Positions 2,487 through 25,601 of a stretch of DNA of 32,102 nucleotides are shown here, piece after piece; the stretch's first letter is position 1; each line of letters starts with the position of its first letter. This DNA is from Candidatus Poribacteria bacterium. Its GTDB lineage: Bacteria > Poribacteria > WGA-4E > WGA-3G. Where the stretch lies: the NCBI GenBank assembly GCA_022822275.1, contig JAJEBZ010000275.1, positions 1 to 32,102 on the forward strand. Direction: 5' to 3'. Under the pieces are notes generated by a model. It was not told the DNA's origin and did not search any database. It saw only the letters and a list, made by a program, of their open reading frames with translations. The position numbers were made by a program, and so were the translations under genes.

Positions 2487-2620
2487 ATATTCTCCTAATG
2501 TGGTAGTTTTTACTATAAGTATGGTTATATGAGTAGGTTTCAAAAATTAAGTACTTCATACCATTACACAGAATTCATGTTATTATACTATTTCTTTTTG
2601 ACAAATTTCCACAGTAAATG

Positions 2621-2765
2621 GGGGGTATAAAGTTTTTGGCAAATGTTTGGGTTAAGGTGTGTTGTCTGAGACATTTCCGCGAAATCTGCGTCATCCGTGT
2701 CCTCCGCGATTCCGTACACACGCCGCGTAATTCGCGATCCTGGGTGACAAAAACTTTATACACCC
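2621..2765. repeat. MITE-like intergenic element with inverted ends
   Basis: The left end GGGTATAAAGTTTTTGGC (2623-2640) is the inverted counterpart of the right end GTGACAAAAACTTTATACACCC at 2744-2765, read as GGGTGTATAAAGTTTTTGTC on the other strand. The interior contains the GTCATCCGTGTCCTCCGCG motif, and the right 70 bp match 18-68. No target-site duplication is evident around this copy. It belongs to the same end-family as 17225-17406 and 24953-24985. Confidence 0.6.
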
Positions 2766-2777
2766 GTTTAATCAACC

Positions 2778-2806
2778 TTGAAATTTACAACAGAATCTGA
2801 TATAAT
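2778..2806 (+). promoter_or_regulatory. Sigma-70-like promoter for the von Willebrand A gene
   Basis: TTGAAA (2778-2783), a 17-bp spacer, then TATAAT (2801-2806) preceded by TGA, giving an extended -10. The start codon is 65 bp downstream. The promoter begins only 12 bp after the end of the repeat element. Confidence 0.7.
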
Positions 2807-6513: not shown

Positions 6514-9411
6514 TTACTTCCGTATCAACATCTTACGCGTTGAGGTAAAATCGCCTGCTGTGAACGTATAGAAGTACACACCACTTGCAACATGTTCCCC
6601 TTGTGCATTTCTGCCATCCCAATAGGCTGCACGGCTGCGATGCTCATATATTCCAGCAGCCTTATGACCAAACGACAGCGTTCTTATCAACGTGCCGTTG
6701 ACCGCATAGATATGTATTTTCACCTTAGATGGTTTTGCTAAGTGATACGGTATCCACGTCTCAGGATTAAATGGATTTGGGAAGTTCGCCAAGAGTACTG
6801 TCTTTTTCGGAAGCAAAGTATCAAGTAGTTGTTCAAGAACTGTAATACCTTTCAAGTAAATTGCATCTTTGTTAGCGAGTTGTTTCGCTTCGTCAATCCA
6901 TCTTTGCAGGTTCTCTGTAGTCAAAACAGCTGCAGGGGCTGCAGCTGCAGCTTCTAATGCTGCTATGACCAATGCTAAATCATCACTATTGACAACACCA
7001 TCACCATTTACGTCAGGATTCGGTATTGTTCCATCTGGTGGGGTTGTGCCAATAGTGGCAGCGACTAACACGAGGTCTTCCACATCAACGATACCATTTC
7101 TGTTCACATCCACAGCGATTTGCGTTTCCGGCTCCATACCAATAGCAGAAAAAGTTGCCCATGATACAATACCTTCTCCTCTAACTCGTACAGTATTCCA
7201 CCCGGGTGTCCAACCCAGCATTAACTTAGTTTGCGCTCTACCATCAGCATCGGTTGTGGCAGTCGAAGAAGTGAGTTGTCCGTTACCAGACTCCACAGTA
7301 AAGGTTATCGATATGCCTTCCATGGGTTCACCGTTCTCACTCTGTGCCTCAACAACGAAAGGAGATGAAAGGACTGATCCAACAGAACCTTCCTGATTAT
7401 TTCCAGAGACCTTATAGAGTGCTGGATGGGCTCCGTTGTCAAACGATACCTCAGTGCCTTTTGCCTGCATTGCAGGGATATGTGTGTTAATAGAATCGTA
7501 GCTAAGCGGATTGCCGCTAAGGGTTAAATGTCTAATGTTTAACGCTACCAGAGGAGACACATCCGATACATTGTTGTTCCCAAGATTCAAATGACTCAGT
7601 ATTGTCATATCCGCAAGGGGTGATACATCTGATATATTGCTGCCCCAAAGATTCAAGATCGTCAGTTTTGTCATGTCTTTGAGGAGGAACACTTCCGAGA
7701 TATTGTTGACATTAAGATTCAATGCTCTCAGATTGTGTGCGTGTTCAAGCCCGGTGAGGTCTGTTATTCTGCTATTCTCAACTATAAGCCGTGTTAAATC
7801 TAACATCGCGTGTGTTGTAAGAGTTTGACTTGAAGATAGATTGAGAACTTGCCGCACTGCCAACGCTAAAGCAGCGTCCGAAATGGAGACGGTTTGGGGC
7901 GGCGGTAACAAAGAGATAACATCAATCGGAAACTTCTCCAAGCTCCATGTGAAGTTGCCATGTACATCAATAGCCATAAGGGATACAGACTTATTATTCG
8001 GTGCCAAATCGGTAACAAATTCAACCGTGGTATTTGTGCTTCCGTTTAATACTTTACAACTAAGCAATTCAGGAAAGCCATAAGCCGCGCTTGAGGTATC
8101 AAGGGTGGGTGTGAGGAGCTGTGCCTGATGGAGCCCATCGGGATCAGTCACTTCAAAACGGAGGCGGATTGCATTGGGCGGCGCAGCGAGGCTGGGTGGA
8201 AGCATCTTGATTGTTGCACCTTGATTCTTATTAAAAGCAGTTTGATCTGTCCTAAAGGCAGGGTTCATATTCAACAATTCTGCGGCACATTTAGAGAGTC
8301 CATCTTGCCAGCCACTATAAGACATAATGTAGGCAGGACCGCGGAAATCGTGGTGCAATCCAAAGGCATGTCCGAGTTCATGTGCAATGACCGACCAACT
8401 CCAACAGTAGATGTCTGCCCATCCATAAACTCCATTACCGTGACCTCGTCCGCATACAGACTCCGTTATCCCTGCTATCATATTGACATTGATAATTCTC
8501 TTATAGGTAAAATCAAACGCTTGTTGACTTCCTCCTTCCCAGGGAAAGAGATTGTTCTGATAATATGCAGCAGTAGATTTCCCGACTACATGATGGACCA
8601 CGGCGTTTCCGCTGGCATCGGTTTCAAACTGAAATGTTTTCCTACCGAACCCGTGACGTTCCATCTCGTCCGCGTAGAAACGTTGGACTTTCTTTATTAA
8701 CGCGTCAATTTCCGCGTCTGCGTCGGGACGGAGTGCCGTGTCGCTTGCGCGGAAGTAGACGAGTTTCACTATTGTCCTCTGGACTTGTTGCGTTGGCTGT
8801 GGTCGACTACTAATAAAGACATCCATGCCCATACCGTCGTGTCCGAGTTCACTCATCTTAATCATTAGGAGATTGTCACCCGCTACAAAGTTTACTTTGA
8901 ACTCATTTAGGAACCTGTCAGGAAATCTATTCACAAGAACGACCTTTCCATTGAGCCAAACCTTGATAGCGTCTGTAAATCTACCATCATCACCATTACC
9001 GTAGAATTGCATCGTAATATCATTCCATGCTGTCTCACATCTTAACGTAAACAGCGCGTAGCACGAATGGTCTTTTATGTTTCCGGTTGTCAAACCTATT
9101 CGATTGAGACACTCATTGATATTATTGTTTGAGAGGGCCACAAGCCGCCCAAGTGTCCAGGCGTAATTTCCAACCTTATCCCCTTCTCTTGCACCGTTAG
9201 CTGCGACATCGGCTTCAGTGACAGCACCGCCGCTTGCAACAGCGAGCGAATCAATATCTATGGATGCTGTCCCACCTTGCCCAGGTTCGGTGGGGGCGAT
9301 CATCCATAGCCAGGGACCCCCGCTCATTGTTGTTAGTGCATGTGCGAAATGCGGTATGAAAAAAAGTGCTATAAGACATATAAATCCAATTGAAATTAGT
9401 TTTTTATTCAT
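6514..9411 (-). CDS. Secreted metzincin-type metalloprotease with LRR, dockerin and sorting domains
   Basis: A 965-residue exoprotein. Order: signal peptide (1-25, ending HFAHA); a beta-sandwich-like domain to about 208 (GPWLWMIAPTEPGQGG, then IKVWLNGKVV); a zinc peptidase region with HELGHAFGLHH at 344-354, which fits the metzincin pattern HExxHxxGxxH, followed by the Met-turn-like IMSYSGW; a beta-rich segment to about 505; leucine-rich repeats of the NISDVSPL type (about 540-650); an Ig-like/Big domain (about 660-760); two calcium-loop dockerin repeats (DVNRNGIVDVEDL and DVNGDGVVNSDDL, about 766-825); and a C-terminal region from about 873 with NFPNPFNPETWIPY and GVYFYTF, ending TRKMLIRK, like type IX sorting domains. 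AGGAGGG precedes the ATG. It is 41 bp after its paralogue and probably a tandem duplicate. It likely degrades or binds an extracellular protein or glycoprotein; the target is unknown. Confidence 0.88.
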   Translation of the reverse strand: MNKKLISIGFICLIALFFIPHFAHALTTMSGGPWLWMIAPTEPGQGGTASIDIDSLAVASGGAVTEADVAANGAREGDKVGNYAWTLGRLVALSNNNINECLNRIGLTTGNIKDHSCYALFTLRCETAWNDITMQFYGNGDDGRFTDAIKVWLNGKVVLVNRFPDRFLNEFKVNFVAGDNLLMIKMSELGHDGMGMDVFISSRPQPTQQVQRTIVKLVYFRASDTALRPDADAEIDALIKKVQRFYADEMERHGFGRKTFQFETDASGNAVVHHVVGKSTAAYYQNNLFPWEGGSQQAFDFTYKRIINVNMIAGITESVCGRGHGNGVYGWADIYCWSWSVIAHELGHAFGLHHDFRGPAYIMSYSGWQDGLSKCAAELLNMNPAFRTDQTAFNKNQGATIKMLPPSLAAPPNAIRLRFEVTDPDGLHQAQLLTPTLDTSSAAYGFPELLSCKVLNGSTNTTVEFVTDLAPNNKSVSLMAIDVHGNFTWSLEKFPIDVISLLPPPQTVSISDAALALAVRQVLNLSSSQTLTTHAMLDLTRLIVENSRITDLTGLEHAHNLRALNLNVNNISEVFLLKDMTKLTILNLWGSNISDVSPLADMTILSHLNLGNNNVSDVSPLVALNIRHLTLSGNPLSYDSINTHIPAMQAKGTEVSFDNGAHPALYKVSGNNQEGSVGSVLSSPFVVEAQSENGEPMEGISITFTVESGNGQLTSSTATTDADGRAQTKLMLGWTPGWNTVRVRGEGIVSWATFSAIGMEPETQIAVDVNRNGIVDVEDLVLVAATIGTTPPDGTIPNPDVNGDGVVNSDDLALVIAALEAAAAAPAAVLTTENLQRWIDEAKQLANKDAIYLKGITVLEQLLDTLLPKKTVLLANFPNPFNPETWIPYHLAKPSKVKIHIYAVNGTLIRTLSFGHKAAGIYEHRSRAAYWDGRNAQGEHVASGVYFYTFTAGDFTSTRKMLIRK

Positions 9412-9452
9412 GCATACCCTCCTATTCCACTATAAATGCGGTCCATCCTGAT

Positions 9453-12428
9453 TCACTTCCGTATCAGCATTTTACGCGTTGAGGTGAAATCGTCTGCTGT
9501 GAACGTATAGAAGTACACACCACTTGCAACATGTTCCCCTTGTGCATTCCGTCCATCCCAATATGCTGCATGTGTCTGATGTTCATATTTCCCAGCAGCT
9601 TTTTGTCCCAACGATAATGTCCGTACCAACGTGCCATCAACTCCATAGATATGTATTTTCACCTTAGATGGTTTTGCTAAATGAAAAGGTATCCATGTTT
9701 CAGGATTAAATGGATTTGGGAAGTTCGCCAAGAGCACTGTCTTTTTAGGTAGCAAAGTAGACAGCAACTGCTCAAGTGCTGTAATACCTTTCAAGTAAAT
9801 TTCATCTTTGTTAGCGAGTTGCTTCGCTTCGTCAATCCATCTTTGAAGATTTTCAGCAGTCATAGCAACAGCAGGTGCTGCGGCAGAATTTTCTAATGCT
9901 GCCATGACCAACGCTAAATCACCACTATTGACAACGCCATCACCGTTTACGTCAGGATTCGGTATTACATCTTTTGGAGGTGTTGTACCCAAACTTGCTG
10001 CAACAAGGACAAGGTCCTCCACATCAACCTGACCATCTCTATTGACATCTTCTAAGGTTTGAGCTAAGAGTGACGTAGCATTTGCAGTAAAAAATAGTGA
10101 TGAGGCAATACCGTCGGCCGTTACGTGAACTGTGTTGCTACCTTCATGCCATCCAAGCAAGTGGTATGTCTGTCCTCTGCCGTTGGTATCAGTTTTAGTC
10201 GTAGCATTTGTCAGTTGACCACCACCGTTTTTAATTGAAAACTGGACTGTTAGATCGGAGATTGGATTACCTTTCTCATCTTGTGCTTCTACGAGAAGCG
10301 GTGATGGCAGTACAGTACCAGCCATTGCTTCTTGGTTGTCACCGGATATTTTCAGTATTGCAGGATGTGTAACATTGTCGTAACTAACAATAATACCATT
10401 TTCTTTAAGAATAGGGATTTGCACATGCACAGAATTGTAACTCAATGGATTATGGTTTAGGTTTAAACCTAAACCATCAAATCCAGGGCCTATTAAATTT
10501 AGCATAACAATCGGTGATATATCTGAAATCCGATTGCCATAAAGCCCTAAATACGTCAATTTTTTCAATCTACGAAGATGTGTTATATCTGAAATACTGT
10601 TTCTGCTTAGATATAGCTGTCTGAGATTTAAACCATGTTCAATTCCAGTGAGCTCTGTGATGTTTTGTCCAGAGGCACTCAGGGTTCTTAAATCCCACAT
10701 TAAATGTGTGGTAACTTCTTCATCCTGATGGATGTTTAGGGATTTTCGAATAGCAGCAGATAGATTTGGATCGGGGATAGACACCACTTTTGGCGGAGGT
10801 AGCAGCGAGGTAACATTGATCGGAAACTTCTCAAGGTGCCATGTGAAGTTGCCATGTACATCAATAGCCATAAGGGATACAGACTTATTAGTCGGTGTCA
10901 AATCGGTAGTGACAAATTCAACCGTGGTATCTGTACTTCCGTTTAATGATTTACAACTAATCAATTCAAAGAATCCAATAGCTAAGCCTGGGGTAACAGA
11001 GGGTGTGAGGAGTTGTACCTGGTGAAGTCCATCCGGATCAGTTACCTTAAAGTGGAGGCGGATAGCATTTGGATGCGAGTCAAGAGTTGGTGAAAGCATT
11101 TCTGTTTTTGTAGGTTCGTCCTCGGTCCTTCTGCCGGGATTGAAGGTACTATGGACATCTAACCATTCAGCTGCACAATGGGAAAGTTGAGGGTTTATTT
11201 TGGAACCGTAGGACATGATGTAGTTATAGCTGCCGATGCGGAAATCGTGTTTCAATCCGAAGGCGTGTCCGAGTTCATGGGCAATGACCTTCCAATTCCA
11301 GCACCCATGCGAAAAGTAGATACTTGCGAAACCACTTTCCCTACCTCCGGCACTCCCGAGACCACACTTTCCTTGAGTTTGGTCGTCGTCCATATAGACA
11401 AAGAAACCCTTGCGGGTATTGTGAATCGGTTCACGATGCACCACGGTGTTCCCACTTGTATCTACTTCAATCTGAAAAGTTTTTCTACCGAATCCGTGGC
11501 GTTCCATTTCATCGGCAAAGAAACGTTGCGTCTCCTTGATTAATGCATCAATTTCTGCATCAACATTCGGGCGAGGTGGACTGCCAGGTAAGGGTCTGTA
11601 GACGACATAGACTATCGGACGCAGAATATCTGGGTCTTGAATTTGCCCATCATCGCTGCTAACACCGCTAACGGTTTCAATACCAACATAACTGCTAACG
11701 GTATCAATACCGACGAACATGTTCCACCAATCGCTTCGGTCACTCACTTTAACCATGAGGAGATTGTCACCTGCTACCAAGTTTATTGGAAACGTATCTT
11801 CAAAACCAAGATGCCCTCTAAATACAGAGTTATTATAGACAACTTCTCCATTGAGCCAGACCTTGATAGCGTCACTACTGCCGACGCTCATCGGTACACT
11901 GTTTTTGGCAGTGTCGGATTTAAATGTAAATAGCGCGTAAGACGAATGGTCATCCACGTTTCCATGTGTCAGTCCGATCCGAGTGAGGCAATCATTGATA
12001 TTATCTGCGCCAGTAGAATCAATCACGGCGGAAATCTGCCCAAGCGTCCATGCGTAATTTCCAACCTTATCCCCTTCTCTTGCACCGTTAGCTGCGACAT
12101 CGGCTTCAGTGACAGCACCGCCGCTTGCAACAGCGAGCGAATCAATATCTATGGATGCTGCCCCACCTTGCCCAGGTTCGGTAGGGGCGATCATCCACAG
12201 CCAAGGGCCTGTGATTTTTTCTTGTGCATGCGCGAAAAGCGGTAACAAAAAAAGTGCTATGAGACATATAAATCCAACAGGACTTACGCATTTTCTCTTA
12301 AAGTCCCCTTGATAAGGGGGATTTAGGGGGTTAAATCGGTAAAATAACGATTTTTTAACCCCCCTAACCCCCCTTATCAAGGGGGGAATGTGTAAGTCCT
12401 GTCCAATTGAAAATAGTTTTCTATTCAT
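9453..12428 (-). CDS. Secreted metzincin/LRR/dockerin protein with a repeat element in its signal region
   Basis: A 991-residue paralogue of the next gene downstream, with the same domain order: N-terminal beta-sandwich-like domain, zinc motif HELGHAFGLKH at 384-394 with IMSYGSK, LRR segment, Ig-like segment, dockerin pair from about 793, and a C-terminal sorting domain from about 900 ending TRKMLIRK. After MNRKLFSIG the frame runs through 43 extra residues before resuming at FICLIALFLLPLFAHAQ, which matches the paralogue's signal peptide. The extra residues are coded by a 124-bp palindromic element plus a 5-bp duplication. GGAGGG precedes the ATG at 12428. I see no credible in-frame start between the element and the hydrophobic core. 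The protein would therefore be exported with a signal peptide whose n-region is about 52 residues long, or its export may be impaired. Confidence 0.87.
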   Translation of the reverse strand: MNRKLFSIGQDLHIPPLIRGVRGVKKSLFYRFNPLNPPYQGDFKRKCVSPVGFICLIALFLLPLFAHAQEKITGPWLWMIAPTEPGQGGAASIDIDSLAVASGGAVTEADVAANGAREGDKVGNYAWTLGQISAVIDSTGADNINDCLTRIGLTHGNVDDHSSYALFTFKSDTAKNSVPMSVGSSDAIKVWLNGEVVYNNSVFRGHLGFEDTFPINLVAGDNLLMVKVSDRSDWWNMFVGIDTVSSYVGIETVSGVSSDDGQIQDPDILRPIVYVVYRPLPGSPPRPNVDAEIDALIKETQRFFADEMERHGFGRKTFQIEVDTSGNTVVHREPIHNTRKGFFVYMDDDQTQGKCGLGSAGGRESGFASIYFSHGCWNWKVIAHELGHAFGLKHDFRIGSYNYIMSYGSKINPQLSHCAAEWLDVHSTFNPGRRTEDEPTKTEMLSPTLDSHPNAIRLHFKVTDPDGLHQVQLLTPSVTPGLAIGFFELISCKSLNGSTDTTVEFVTTDLTPTNKSVSLMAIDVHGNFTWHLEKFPINVTSLLPPPKVVSIPDPNLSAAIRKSLNIHQDEEVTTHLMWDLRTLSASGQNITELTGIEHGLNLRQLYLSRNSISDITHLRRLKKLTYLGLYGNRISDISPIVMLNLIGPGFDGLGLNLNHNPLSYNSVHVQIPILKENGIIVSYDNVTHPAILKISGDNQEAMAGTVLPSPLLVEAQDEKGNPISDLTVQFSIKNGGGQLTNATTKTDTNGRGQTYHLLGWHEGSNTVHVTADGIASSLFFTANATSLLAQTLEDVNRDGQVDVEDLVLVAASLGTTPPKDVIPNPDVNGDGVVNSGDLALVMAALENSAAAPAVAMTAENLQRWIDEAKQLANKDEIYLKGITALEQLLSTLLPKKTVLLANFPNPFNPETWIPFHLAKPSKVKIHIYGVDGTLVRTLSLGQKAAGKYEHQTHAAYWDGRNAQGEHVASGVYFYTFTADDFTSTRKMLIRK
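12278..12401. mobile_element. 124-bp MITE-like palindromic element inserted in a coding region
   Basis: The ends are inverted repeats, CAGGACTTACGCATT on the left and the complement of CAGGACTTACACATT on the right (one mismatch in 15). The interior can fold into a long hairpin from the two blocks containing CCTTGATAAGGGG and CCCTTATCAAGGGG. It is flanked by the 5-bp direct repeat TCCAA at 12273-12277 and 12402-12406. The paralogue has the uninterrupted sequence ATAAATCCAATTGAAA around 9380-9395, with a single TCCAA at 9385-9389. Element plus duplication is 129 bp, or 43 codons, without a stop in the gene's frame. It encodes no transposase, so it must have been moved by a protein coded elsewhere. 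Confidence 0.9.
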
Positions 12429-17179: not shown

Positions 17180-17208
17180 ATGATACCATATATACATTGA
17201 TAAGTCAA
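17180..17208 (-). promoter_or_regulatory. Promoter for the radical SAM/ECF/dockerin gene run
   Basis: On the minus strand TTGACT (17208-17203), a 17-bp spacer, then TATCAT (17185-17180) preceded by TGG, an extended -10. The start codon at 17092 is about 87 bp downstream. This could drive the whole run down to 5643, since gaps between those genes are small. Confidence 0.6.
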
Positions 17209-17224
17209 ATTTATTATGGGTTCG

Positions 17225-17406
17225 GGGTGTGTAGAGTTTTTGTCACTATATAAGTCTAAGGGGTGTCCATATTTGTTAATCGTTTATTTACGCGTTGCGC
17301 GGCTTGTGTAGGAGCGAGTTTTGCTCGCGACCTTTTGCCCGAGGTCGCGAGCAAAACTCGCTCCTACAGCAGAAAAAAACGGTTAATGCCAAAAATTTAC
17401 ACACCC
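17225..17406. mobile_element. 182-bp MITE-like element with nested REP-type hairpin
   Basis: The left end GGGTGTGTAGAGTTTTTG (17225-17242) and right end, read on the other strand as GGGTGTGTAAATTTTTGG (17406-17389), are imperfect inverted repeats. The flanks carry a direct repeat: ATGGGTTCGGG at 17216-17226 and again at 17407-17417. Allowing for overlap with the end of the element, this is a 9-11 bp candidate target duplication. A perfect 26-bp hairpin sits in the interior (17307-17368). The block at 17371-17402 recurs inverted at 24953-24985. There is no coding capacity, so it would depend on a transposase coded elsewhere. Confidence 0.65.
17307..17368. repeat. REP-like hairpin, perfect 26-bp inverted repeat
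   Basis: The left arm (17307-17332) starts TGTAGGAGCGAGTTTTGCTC and the right arm (17343-17368) is its exact complement, ending CGAGTTTTGC-type sequence then TCGCTCCTACA when read outward; the loop is 10 nt. Each arm also contains a smaller palindrome, CGAG..CTCG. The TGTAGGAGCGAG core resembles REP elements known from Pseudomonas and other bacteria. A related hairpin with the same CTGTAGGAGCGA start is at 31918-31984. Confidence 0.75.
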
Positions 17407-17453
17407 ATGGGTTCGGGTTAGGTTATTTTTGATTAAGAAATATATTTGCAGGA

Positions 17454-24902: not shown

Positions 24903-24932
24903 AGATTATCATATACTGTATTTGGGTGTCAA
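24903..24932 (-). promoter_or_regulatory. Promoter for truA and the following genes
   Basis: On the minus strand TTGACA (24932-24927), an 18-bp spacer, then TAATCT (24908-24903) preceded by TGA. The truA start at 24864 is about 38 bp downstream. Confidence 0.6.
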
Positions 24933-24952
24933 TGGAATTTTAGTTGCCGTTT

Positions 24953-24985
24953 GTGTAAAGTTTTTGGCATTAACCGTTTTTTTCT
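24953..24985. repeat. One end of a dispersed intergenic repeat
   Basis: GTGTAAAGTTTTTGGCATTA followed by ACCGTTTTTTTCT matches, with one gap, the reverse complement of 17371-17402. The next bases, TTAAGTTGACACCTATA, recur in inverted form near 31655-31672. No matching other end was found downstream, so this may be a remnant. Confidence 0.6.
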
Positions 24986-25149: not shown

Positions 25150-25571
25150 GGGAACATTTAAAATGTGATGTAAACCCAGTGGTAGAAAGGGTTAACAGGT
25201 AATTTCTTGTAAATTGAAAAAAATATTTTTTTGAAAAGTGTAACATTTTGAAATTTCTTGTCTTTTTATGAGTAGAATGTGTCAGTTTTATAGATGTGGT
25301 CATAATATTTTGTCATAAGTTTAATGTGTGAAGTATATTATAACACATATAATTAATGTGTGTCAAGTGTTTTTAACGTTTGTTGTGATTTATTTTGCTT
25401 TTTTTATAGTATTATTTATATTATAGCGCGTCATGCGTGTGAGTTTCCAAATTGTCTTTGGTGTGGAACAATAGATATCCAATAAATATCCCATAGATTT
25501 CCGTTAATGCTTCATAATGTATTTGAAAAAACTGGACAATTGAATGCCTCTGCCCCTCATGTTTTGCTTGC

Positions 25572-25601
25572 TTGACCAAAGTACATTAACAGTGGTATAA
25601 T
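25572..25601 (+). promoter_or_regulatory. Sigma-70-like promoter for thiD
   Basis: TTGACC (25572-25577), an 18-bp spacer, then TATAAT (25596-25601) preceded by TGG. The thiD start is 77 bp downstream. The leader shows no match I recognise to the thiamine pyrophosphate riboswitch. Confidence 0.7.

Follow-up and report, generated by a model that had tools for sequence, protein, structure and literature searches.

One Poribacteria genome carries well over a hundred tiny mobile elements marked by a repeated end sequence, and these seem to be MITEs of ISKra4-type insertion sequences. Elements of this kind are ordinary. The unusual part is their near base-exact relation to promoters: going by consensus promoter calls in several genomes and for two families of elements, many of the ends lie in a narrow register upstream of promoters, which is statistically very strong and nearly exact to the base. 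Our best explanation, which we consider probable, is that ISKra4 transposases mobilise these MITEs, that insertion is directed to sigma70 promoters, and that promoter-bound RNA polymerase is probably the guide. By the window, we mean the whole stretch of 32,102 bp that was analysed (bases 1-32102 of contig C303) from a genome assembly of 4.53 Mb in 320 contigs (G000, the source genome).

The end sequence is far too common in the source genome to be there by chance. With the pattern GTGTAAAGTTTTTG and at most one mismatch, there were 194 forward and 171 reverse matches (365 together), while our control, the reversed pattern, gave 2 + 3 = 5. Within the window, allowing up to three mismatches, there were 18 matches, as compared to a mean of 6.0 and a maximum of 13 in shuffled sequences. 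A preliminary description of the window had pointed to four places with this end and had proposed a genome-wide search; all four carry the motif, with refined coordinates, and the search yielded the large excess just given. The 18-base end is also found in all 18 genomes from the genus (including the source genome) and in 13 of 17 other genomes from the family. Beyond the family, it turned up in 1 of 24 genomes, as a lone end.

For the anatomy of the elements, we used a sample of the source genome, namely the first 100 exact ends that were listed, which reach as far as contig C107, together with the window; this comes to 59 segments and 301,733 bp. The excess of paired inverted ends that one would expect of such a family is there: the sample contains 52 elements with inverted ends, of 145-464 bp, and another 32 strong ends that are unpaired. 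The terminal inverted repeats of this family, which we call family 1, are about 22 bp long (GGGTGTGTAAAGTTTTTGKCA). As the preliminary description had it, the ends are shared and the interiors differ. Clustering sorted the 52 interiors into four groups: CGGATT-type words characterise 38 of them, a REP hairpin 5, a high AT content 4, and a GTCCCTACGG palindrome another 4. The one remaining interior stands alone. The bases directly inside the ends are mostly GTCAC, GGCAT, GGCAC, GCACA, or GTACA; GGCA or GTCAC had been reported at this position, which is right, and these variants correspond to sub-types of the autonomous elements. We also noticed a palindromic mini-sequence of about 42 bp (GGGGAATGCC...GGCATTC...) that is nested in one insertion sequence (L106:1256-1297) and in several MITEs (e.g., on C41, C9, C25, and C74 of the source genome). 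It is apparently an independent small insert.

ISKra4-family elements have, as a rule, terminal repeats that start with GGG and a 9-bp target duplication. We think that our elements are MITEs of this type because related genomes have the same ends, with the same sub-types, around an ISKra4 transposase. In a genome that is a single contig (G010), the ends enclose units of about 1.46 kb with ORFs of 439 and 441 amino acids. The transposase ORFs of two units (L103 and L102) score 225.7 and 222.7 bits against the NCBIfam model for the ISKra4 family (NF033572), which has a cut-off of 205; a decayed copy (L106) scores 128.8 bits, which is below the cut-off. The inner end sub-types of the transposase-bearing elements in G010, G009, and G014 are GTCAC, GGCAT, GCACA, and GTACA, as in the MITEs. 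Also, L103 has a perfect 9-bp target duplication (ATCTCTTTC), the sole perfect one of this length among seven transposase-bearing units. Given a score above the curated cut-off, ends that start with GGG, and a 9-bp duplication, the putative autonomous partner looks like a member of the ISKra4 family, and it resembles the copies on plasmids of cyanobacteria and Thiodictyon in its ends and duplications. Homologues of the transposase are present in 12 of the 18 genus genomes, and a scan of wider contigs identified five loci, all from Candidatus Poribacteria and four of them on chromosome OY282386.1. Despite the roughly 365 ends in the source genome, a search of its 320-contig assembly for transposase homologues gave no match. 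Possibly the gene falls in a gap of the assembly, or else it was lost, which would make this a stranded MITE population.

Two other candidates for the partner were rejected. The IS256 family has a GTGTAAA-like core in its ends and target duplications of 8-9 bp, and our elements are similar in both respects, which is why IS256 was guessed. But Transposase_mut (PF00872) had no match in the source genome, and it is present in just 1 of 57 genomes from the family, at two loci that do not have these ends. Second, two long TIR-bounded stretches of the source genome (L031 and L032) might have been autonomous elements; judged by eye, they contain no transposase-like ORF.

The preliminary description grouped the elements by their shared ends, and this grouping holds. 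It missed their mobility, which is shown by target duplications and an empty site as well as by the ISKra4 transposase between the same ends. The left and right flanks of the elements agree best at exactly 9 bp, and for 8 of 51 elements they agree perfectly. If we allow one mismatch, 11 of 51 elements have a 9-bp duplication; when the pairings were shuffled, this number averaged 0.21 and never exceeded 2. Duplications are present in part of the elements, and an empty site was demonstrated for one of them, a family 1 MITE of 182 bp at 17225-17406. This MITE, whose fold has a z score of -11.3, has both ends and a REP-like, perfect 27-bp inner hairpin (17307-17368), and it lies between two perfect copies of ATGGGTTCG (17216-17224 on the left and 17407-17415 on the right). 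In the sister genome G007, which is 93-94% identical at this locus, there is a single copy of ATGGGTTCG and no element. We also found two loci (L059 and L102) where two elements adjoin with an 8-9 bp repeat between them, as would be expected if elements had inserted more than once at the same point. Overall, these sequences are MITEs: they are short and non-autonomous, they have their terminal repeats in common with an autonomous element, and there are duplications and an empty site.

Prokaryotic MITEs include Correia, RUP, and ERIC. Our elements are like these in being short and intergenic, in having terminal repeats and target duplications, and in being often near promoters. They are unlike them in that a single set of ends carries several unrelated interiors, and in that their distance to the -35 box is fixed almost to the base.

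Nearly all of the elements are intergenic, as had been claimed. When we excised the elements in silico and ignored any ORF of under 450 nt that spanned the excision junction, 1 of 49 elements was inside an ORF. (With the elements left in place, 12 of 52 had an overlap with a naive ORF of 100 amino acids or more.) Both neighbouring genes could be classed for 39 elements. Twenty-five of these lie between divergent genes, which account for 40% of the intergenic bases in the same segments, and none lie between convergent genes, which account for 8.8%. These results bear on the suggestion, also from the preliminary description, that the elements might serve as transcript ends. Both of the complete elements in the window (2621-2765 and 17225-17406) do fold better than shuffles as RNA. 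But the elements are placed upstream of promoters, and because none of the 39 are between convergent genes and no terminator-like site was found inside the elements at the four window sites, the idea is unsupported, and we consider it extremely unlikely.

The relation to promoters can be seen in the window. At its left edge is the right part of a family 1 element, truncated by the start of the contig (1-68, with the right terminal repeat at 51-68); because the contig begins at base 1, any left end lies off the contig. It is followed by a sigma70-like promoter on the forward strand (85-113, TTGACC-17-TACAAT, 10/12 consensus) whose -35 box starts 16 bp past the element's end at 68. Next is a family 1 MITE of 145 bp at 2621-2765, with a GTCCTCCG/CGGATT-type interior and with both ends present (terminal repeats at 2621-2638 and 2748-2765; the 21-nt arms are 90% complementary). 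We looked for a target duplication at its flanks and saw no clear one. A promoter with a better match to the consensus (2778-2806, forward strand, TTGAAA-17-TATAAT, 11/12) has a -35 box that starts 12 bp past the right end of this MITE, which is the gap that had been reported. On the other side, a weak sigma70-like promoter (2577-2604, reverse strand, TTGTCA-16-TAACAT, 9/12) points away from the MITE, with its -35 box 16 bp from the left end; it is under the threshold of our strong caller, and 11 such sites were found in 3 kb versus 7.6 in shuffles, so it could be there by chance. The -35 box of the promoter beside the MITE at 17225-17406 (17180-17208, reverse strand, TTGACT-17-TATCAT, 10/12) starts 16 bp from the left end and is also present at the empty site in G007. 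The fourth site is a solo end, identified by its match to the end motif, and it includes the beginning of a REP-type interior (24949-24985, forward strand). There is no right end for it among the motif matches in the window with up to three mismatches. The adjacent promoter (24905-24932, reverse strand, TTGACA-16-GATAAT, 11/12) has a -35 box that starts 16 bp from this end. So all four family 1 sites in the window have a -35-like box that starts 16 bp off (at 85, 2604, 17208, and 24932), with the one at 2604 being weak.

The sister genome is different at two of these sites. At the site of the solo end, G007 has a two-ended family 1 element with another interior and with the same promoter, which is at a spacing of 22 there. 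At 2621, a left end occupies the same position in G007, and an element of a second kind comes after it. The window has other repeats as well. Two adjacent ORFs of 965 and 991 codons (6514-12428) have stretches that are 74-95% identical in DNA and are probably a tandem duplication, and a hairpin with 31-nt arms at 12305-12384 (CCCCTTGATAAGGGGGATTTAGGGGGTTAAA) is a different type of repeat.

The preferred spacing recurs across the source genome. Our first caller looked for strong sigma70-like promoters on 130 outward flanks of elements; these are matches to the consensus, not mapped start sites. It found such a promoter pointing outward on 58 flanks and pointing inward on 2, and for 35 of the 58 the -35 box starts 15-19 bp from the element. 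With a second, looser caller, 36 of the 130 flanks had a promoter at 15-17 (0.8 in shuffles), as did 36 of 158 flanks from other genomes (1.05 in shuffles); these 158 include 12 flanks from the sister genus, of which 4 had a promoter at 15-17 (0.04 in shuffles). Inward calls from the looser caller were near the shuffled level (16 of 130 versus 12.7 in the source genome, and 12 of 158 versus 14.05 in the others). The register is also visible in a scan-free analysis of base composition: across 133 flanks, TTG appears at 16-18 and TATAAT at 39-44 from the end of the element. Across the genus, 278 matches to the pattern end-N{0,30}-TTGACA were spread over 16 of the 18 genomes, and 150 of them, from 9 genomes, were listed. 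We dropped 16 near-identical spacers, which left 134 distinct sites. Among these listed matches, the spacer was 16 nt in 53 cases, 15 nt in 16, and 17 nt in 15, or 84 at 15-17 (binomial 8e-51 against an even spread).

The preliminary description had stated that the elements are often close to promoters and proposed a check for position bias. The relation is stricter than that, with a mode of 16 bp (15-17) upstream of the -35 box. Not every element has it: a promoter was called at 14-18 for 29 of the 49 paired elements, and the other 20 have either no call on either flank (11) or calls elsewhere only (9). There is also a minor group at a spacing of 24 (5 of 63 calls in the source genome).

Could selection alone have produced this pattern? 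Insertion would be roughly random within intergenic DNA, and copies in genes, promoters, or leaders would be purged so that those upstream of the -35 box are left. The intergenic location of nearly all elements and the enrichment between divergent genes both fit. But selection alone predicts a broad spread past some minimum distance and not a peak of 3 bp. Among 46 promoter-bearing flanks whose room is known (median 110 bp), 27 have the promoter at 15-17, versus 1.42 expected under an even spread. Furthermore, convergent regions usually tolerate insertions, yet none of the 39 elements are there.

Another argument against selection alone comes from a second family of elements with ends CAGAGGCATTCAATTGTC. 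Its spacing to the -35 box peaks at 18-19 (33 of 57 matches, of which at least two repeat another; the initial 59 included two chance hits inside a family 1 end, G000:C28 and G011:C436, which we removed). Selection on promoters alone would hardly yield a shift from 16 to 18-19 between families. In a third family, none of 12 sampled ends had a promoter at 15-19 and the sole call was at 30, although 12 is few; its six genus matches have spacings of 5, 7, 11, 19, 28, and 28, which is too sparse for a firm control. Overall, we consider selection alone to be quite unlikely.

In the window, an end of the second family is at 25535-25552 (reverse strand, a motif match), 19 bp from the start of the -35 box of a sigma70-like promoter (25572-25601, forward strand, TTGACC-18-TATAAT), and others are on contigs of G007 (L192 and L194). 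One copy in the source genome (on C44) has a 9-bp duplication with a single mismatch, and no transposase was found for this family. The third family is IS630-like, with ends TGGTAGATTATGGAATTAATT and what looks like a TA duplication; it was seen in G007 (L192:13495-13720), and the corresponding position in the window, 19524, is empty.

Alternatively, the transposase itself might read the -35 and -10 boxes or the shape of nearby DNA (a bend, melting, or an UP element), without RNA polymerase. The register is linked to the positions of the hexamers, as this would predict. On the other hand, the nine duplicated positions show little base preference except at the first, and their A+T content is no higher than elsewhere in the flank, whereas the signal is 16-45 bp away and involves both hexamers. 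That a single protein would read a bipartite promoter of 29 bp with a variable spacer seems less likely than that polymerase is used, and we view direct reading as unlikely.

It could also be that an end 16 bp upstream of a -35 box works as a regulatory site and that mainly those copies survive. The strict spacing, the large copy number, and the conserved ends would be consistent with this. But if retention were the cause, we would not expect what we see in elements with duplications: among the 15 that have one of 8-9 bp, with no more than one mismatch, 9 also have a promoter at 14-18, as compared to 29 of 49 overall. The MITE at 17225-17406, which is absent from the sister species, shows the register too, and so do three of the seven transposase-bearing units examined (L103, L145, and L106, all at 16; L125 has its promoter at 21, and L102, L104, and L124 have no call). 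We consider regulatory retention to be very unlikely.

So we favor insertion that is directed to promoters. An ISKra4-family transposase that uses the same ends would mobilise the MITEs. It seems that nothing but the ends is required in cis, so unrelated interiors could travel between these ends. The staggered cut would extend from about -51 to about -43, counted from a start site that is placed from the -35 and -10 hexamers. A cut there would put the promoter-side end at 16 bp from the -35 box, on its upstream side, and leave the core promoter intact. We infer that insertion itself, rather than later selection, sets the register. Most likely, the transposition complex would be guided by promoter-bound RNA polymerase, close to the alpha C-terminal domains, where the polymerase footprint ends on the upstream side. 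We suggest polymerase because of the geometry of the consensus promoter calls: the junction is near -51, which we take to be the upstream edge of the polymerase footprint. A broader reading is that, throughout this lineage, polymerase steers ISKra4-type elements and their MITEs to sigma70 promoters such that the first base of the flank is at -51, and the second family, whose ends are different, to -53/-54. We give this about an even chance.

We examined eight copies of ISKra4 relatives on plasmids of Tolypothrix, Nostoc, and Thiodictyon. Four of the eight have perfect 9-bp duplications; one has an outward promoter call at 17, another at 30, and the rest have none. Because just one of these eight distant copies has an outward call at 15-17, the register is not established as a trait of the ISKra4 family, and in this respect the Poribacteria elements are unlike it.

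Bacterial insertion sequences are usually described as inserting at random, as seeking AT-rich DNA, or as aimed at specific sites or by RNA guides. (This list is partly from the available portion of PMC10969869.) A class of elements that parks at a single, almost base-exact spacing from ordinary promoters would target its sites in a different way. It is well known that insertion sequences and MITEs are found near promoters, but the available portions of the papers from our non-exhaustive search (PMC10969869, PMC9208149, PMC3909097, and PMC7780238) do not describe a fixed spacing to host promoters, which is weak evidence of absence. For MITEs, the available portion of PMC10969869 describes promoters inside them and intergenic AT-rich targets, and no fixed spacing to host promoters. 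The nearest analogy is the yeast retrotransposon Ty3, which, according to the available portion of PMC8632968, integrates within a tight interval immediately upstream of genes that are transcribed by polymerase, where insertion is called harmless. The narrow upstream window is similar, but this is an analogy only: the machinery and the polymerase are unrelated, and we only infer the guiding factor in Poribacteria.

If our explanation is correct, then Ty3 targeting would have a counterpart in bacteria. Insertions that park at promoters in this way would be nearly harmless, so many copies could accumulate, which would help to explain why so many are tolerated. It would also provide a testable system and possibly a tool for safe insertion. 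And the insertions would be natural markers of promoters, nearly to the base, in these Poribacteria genomes.
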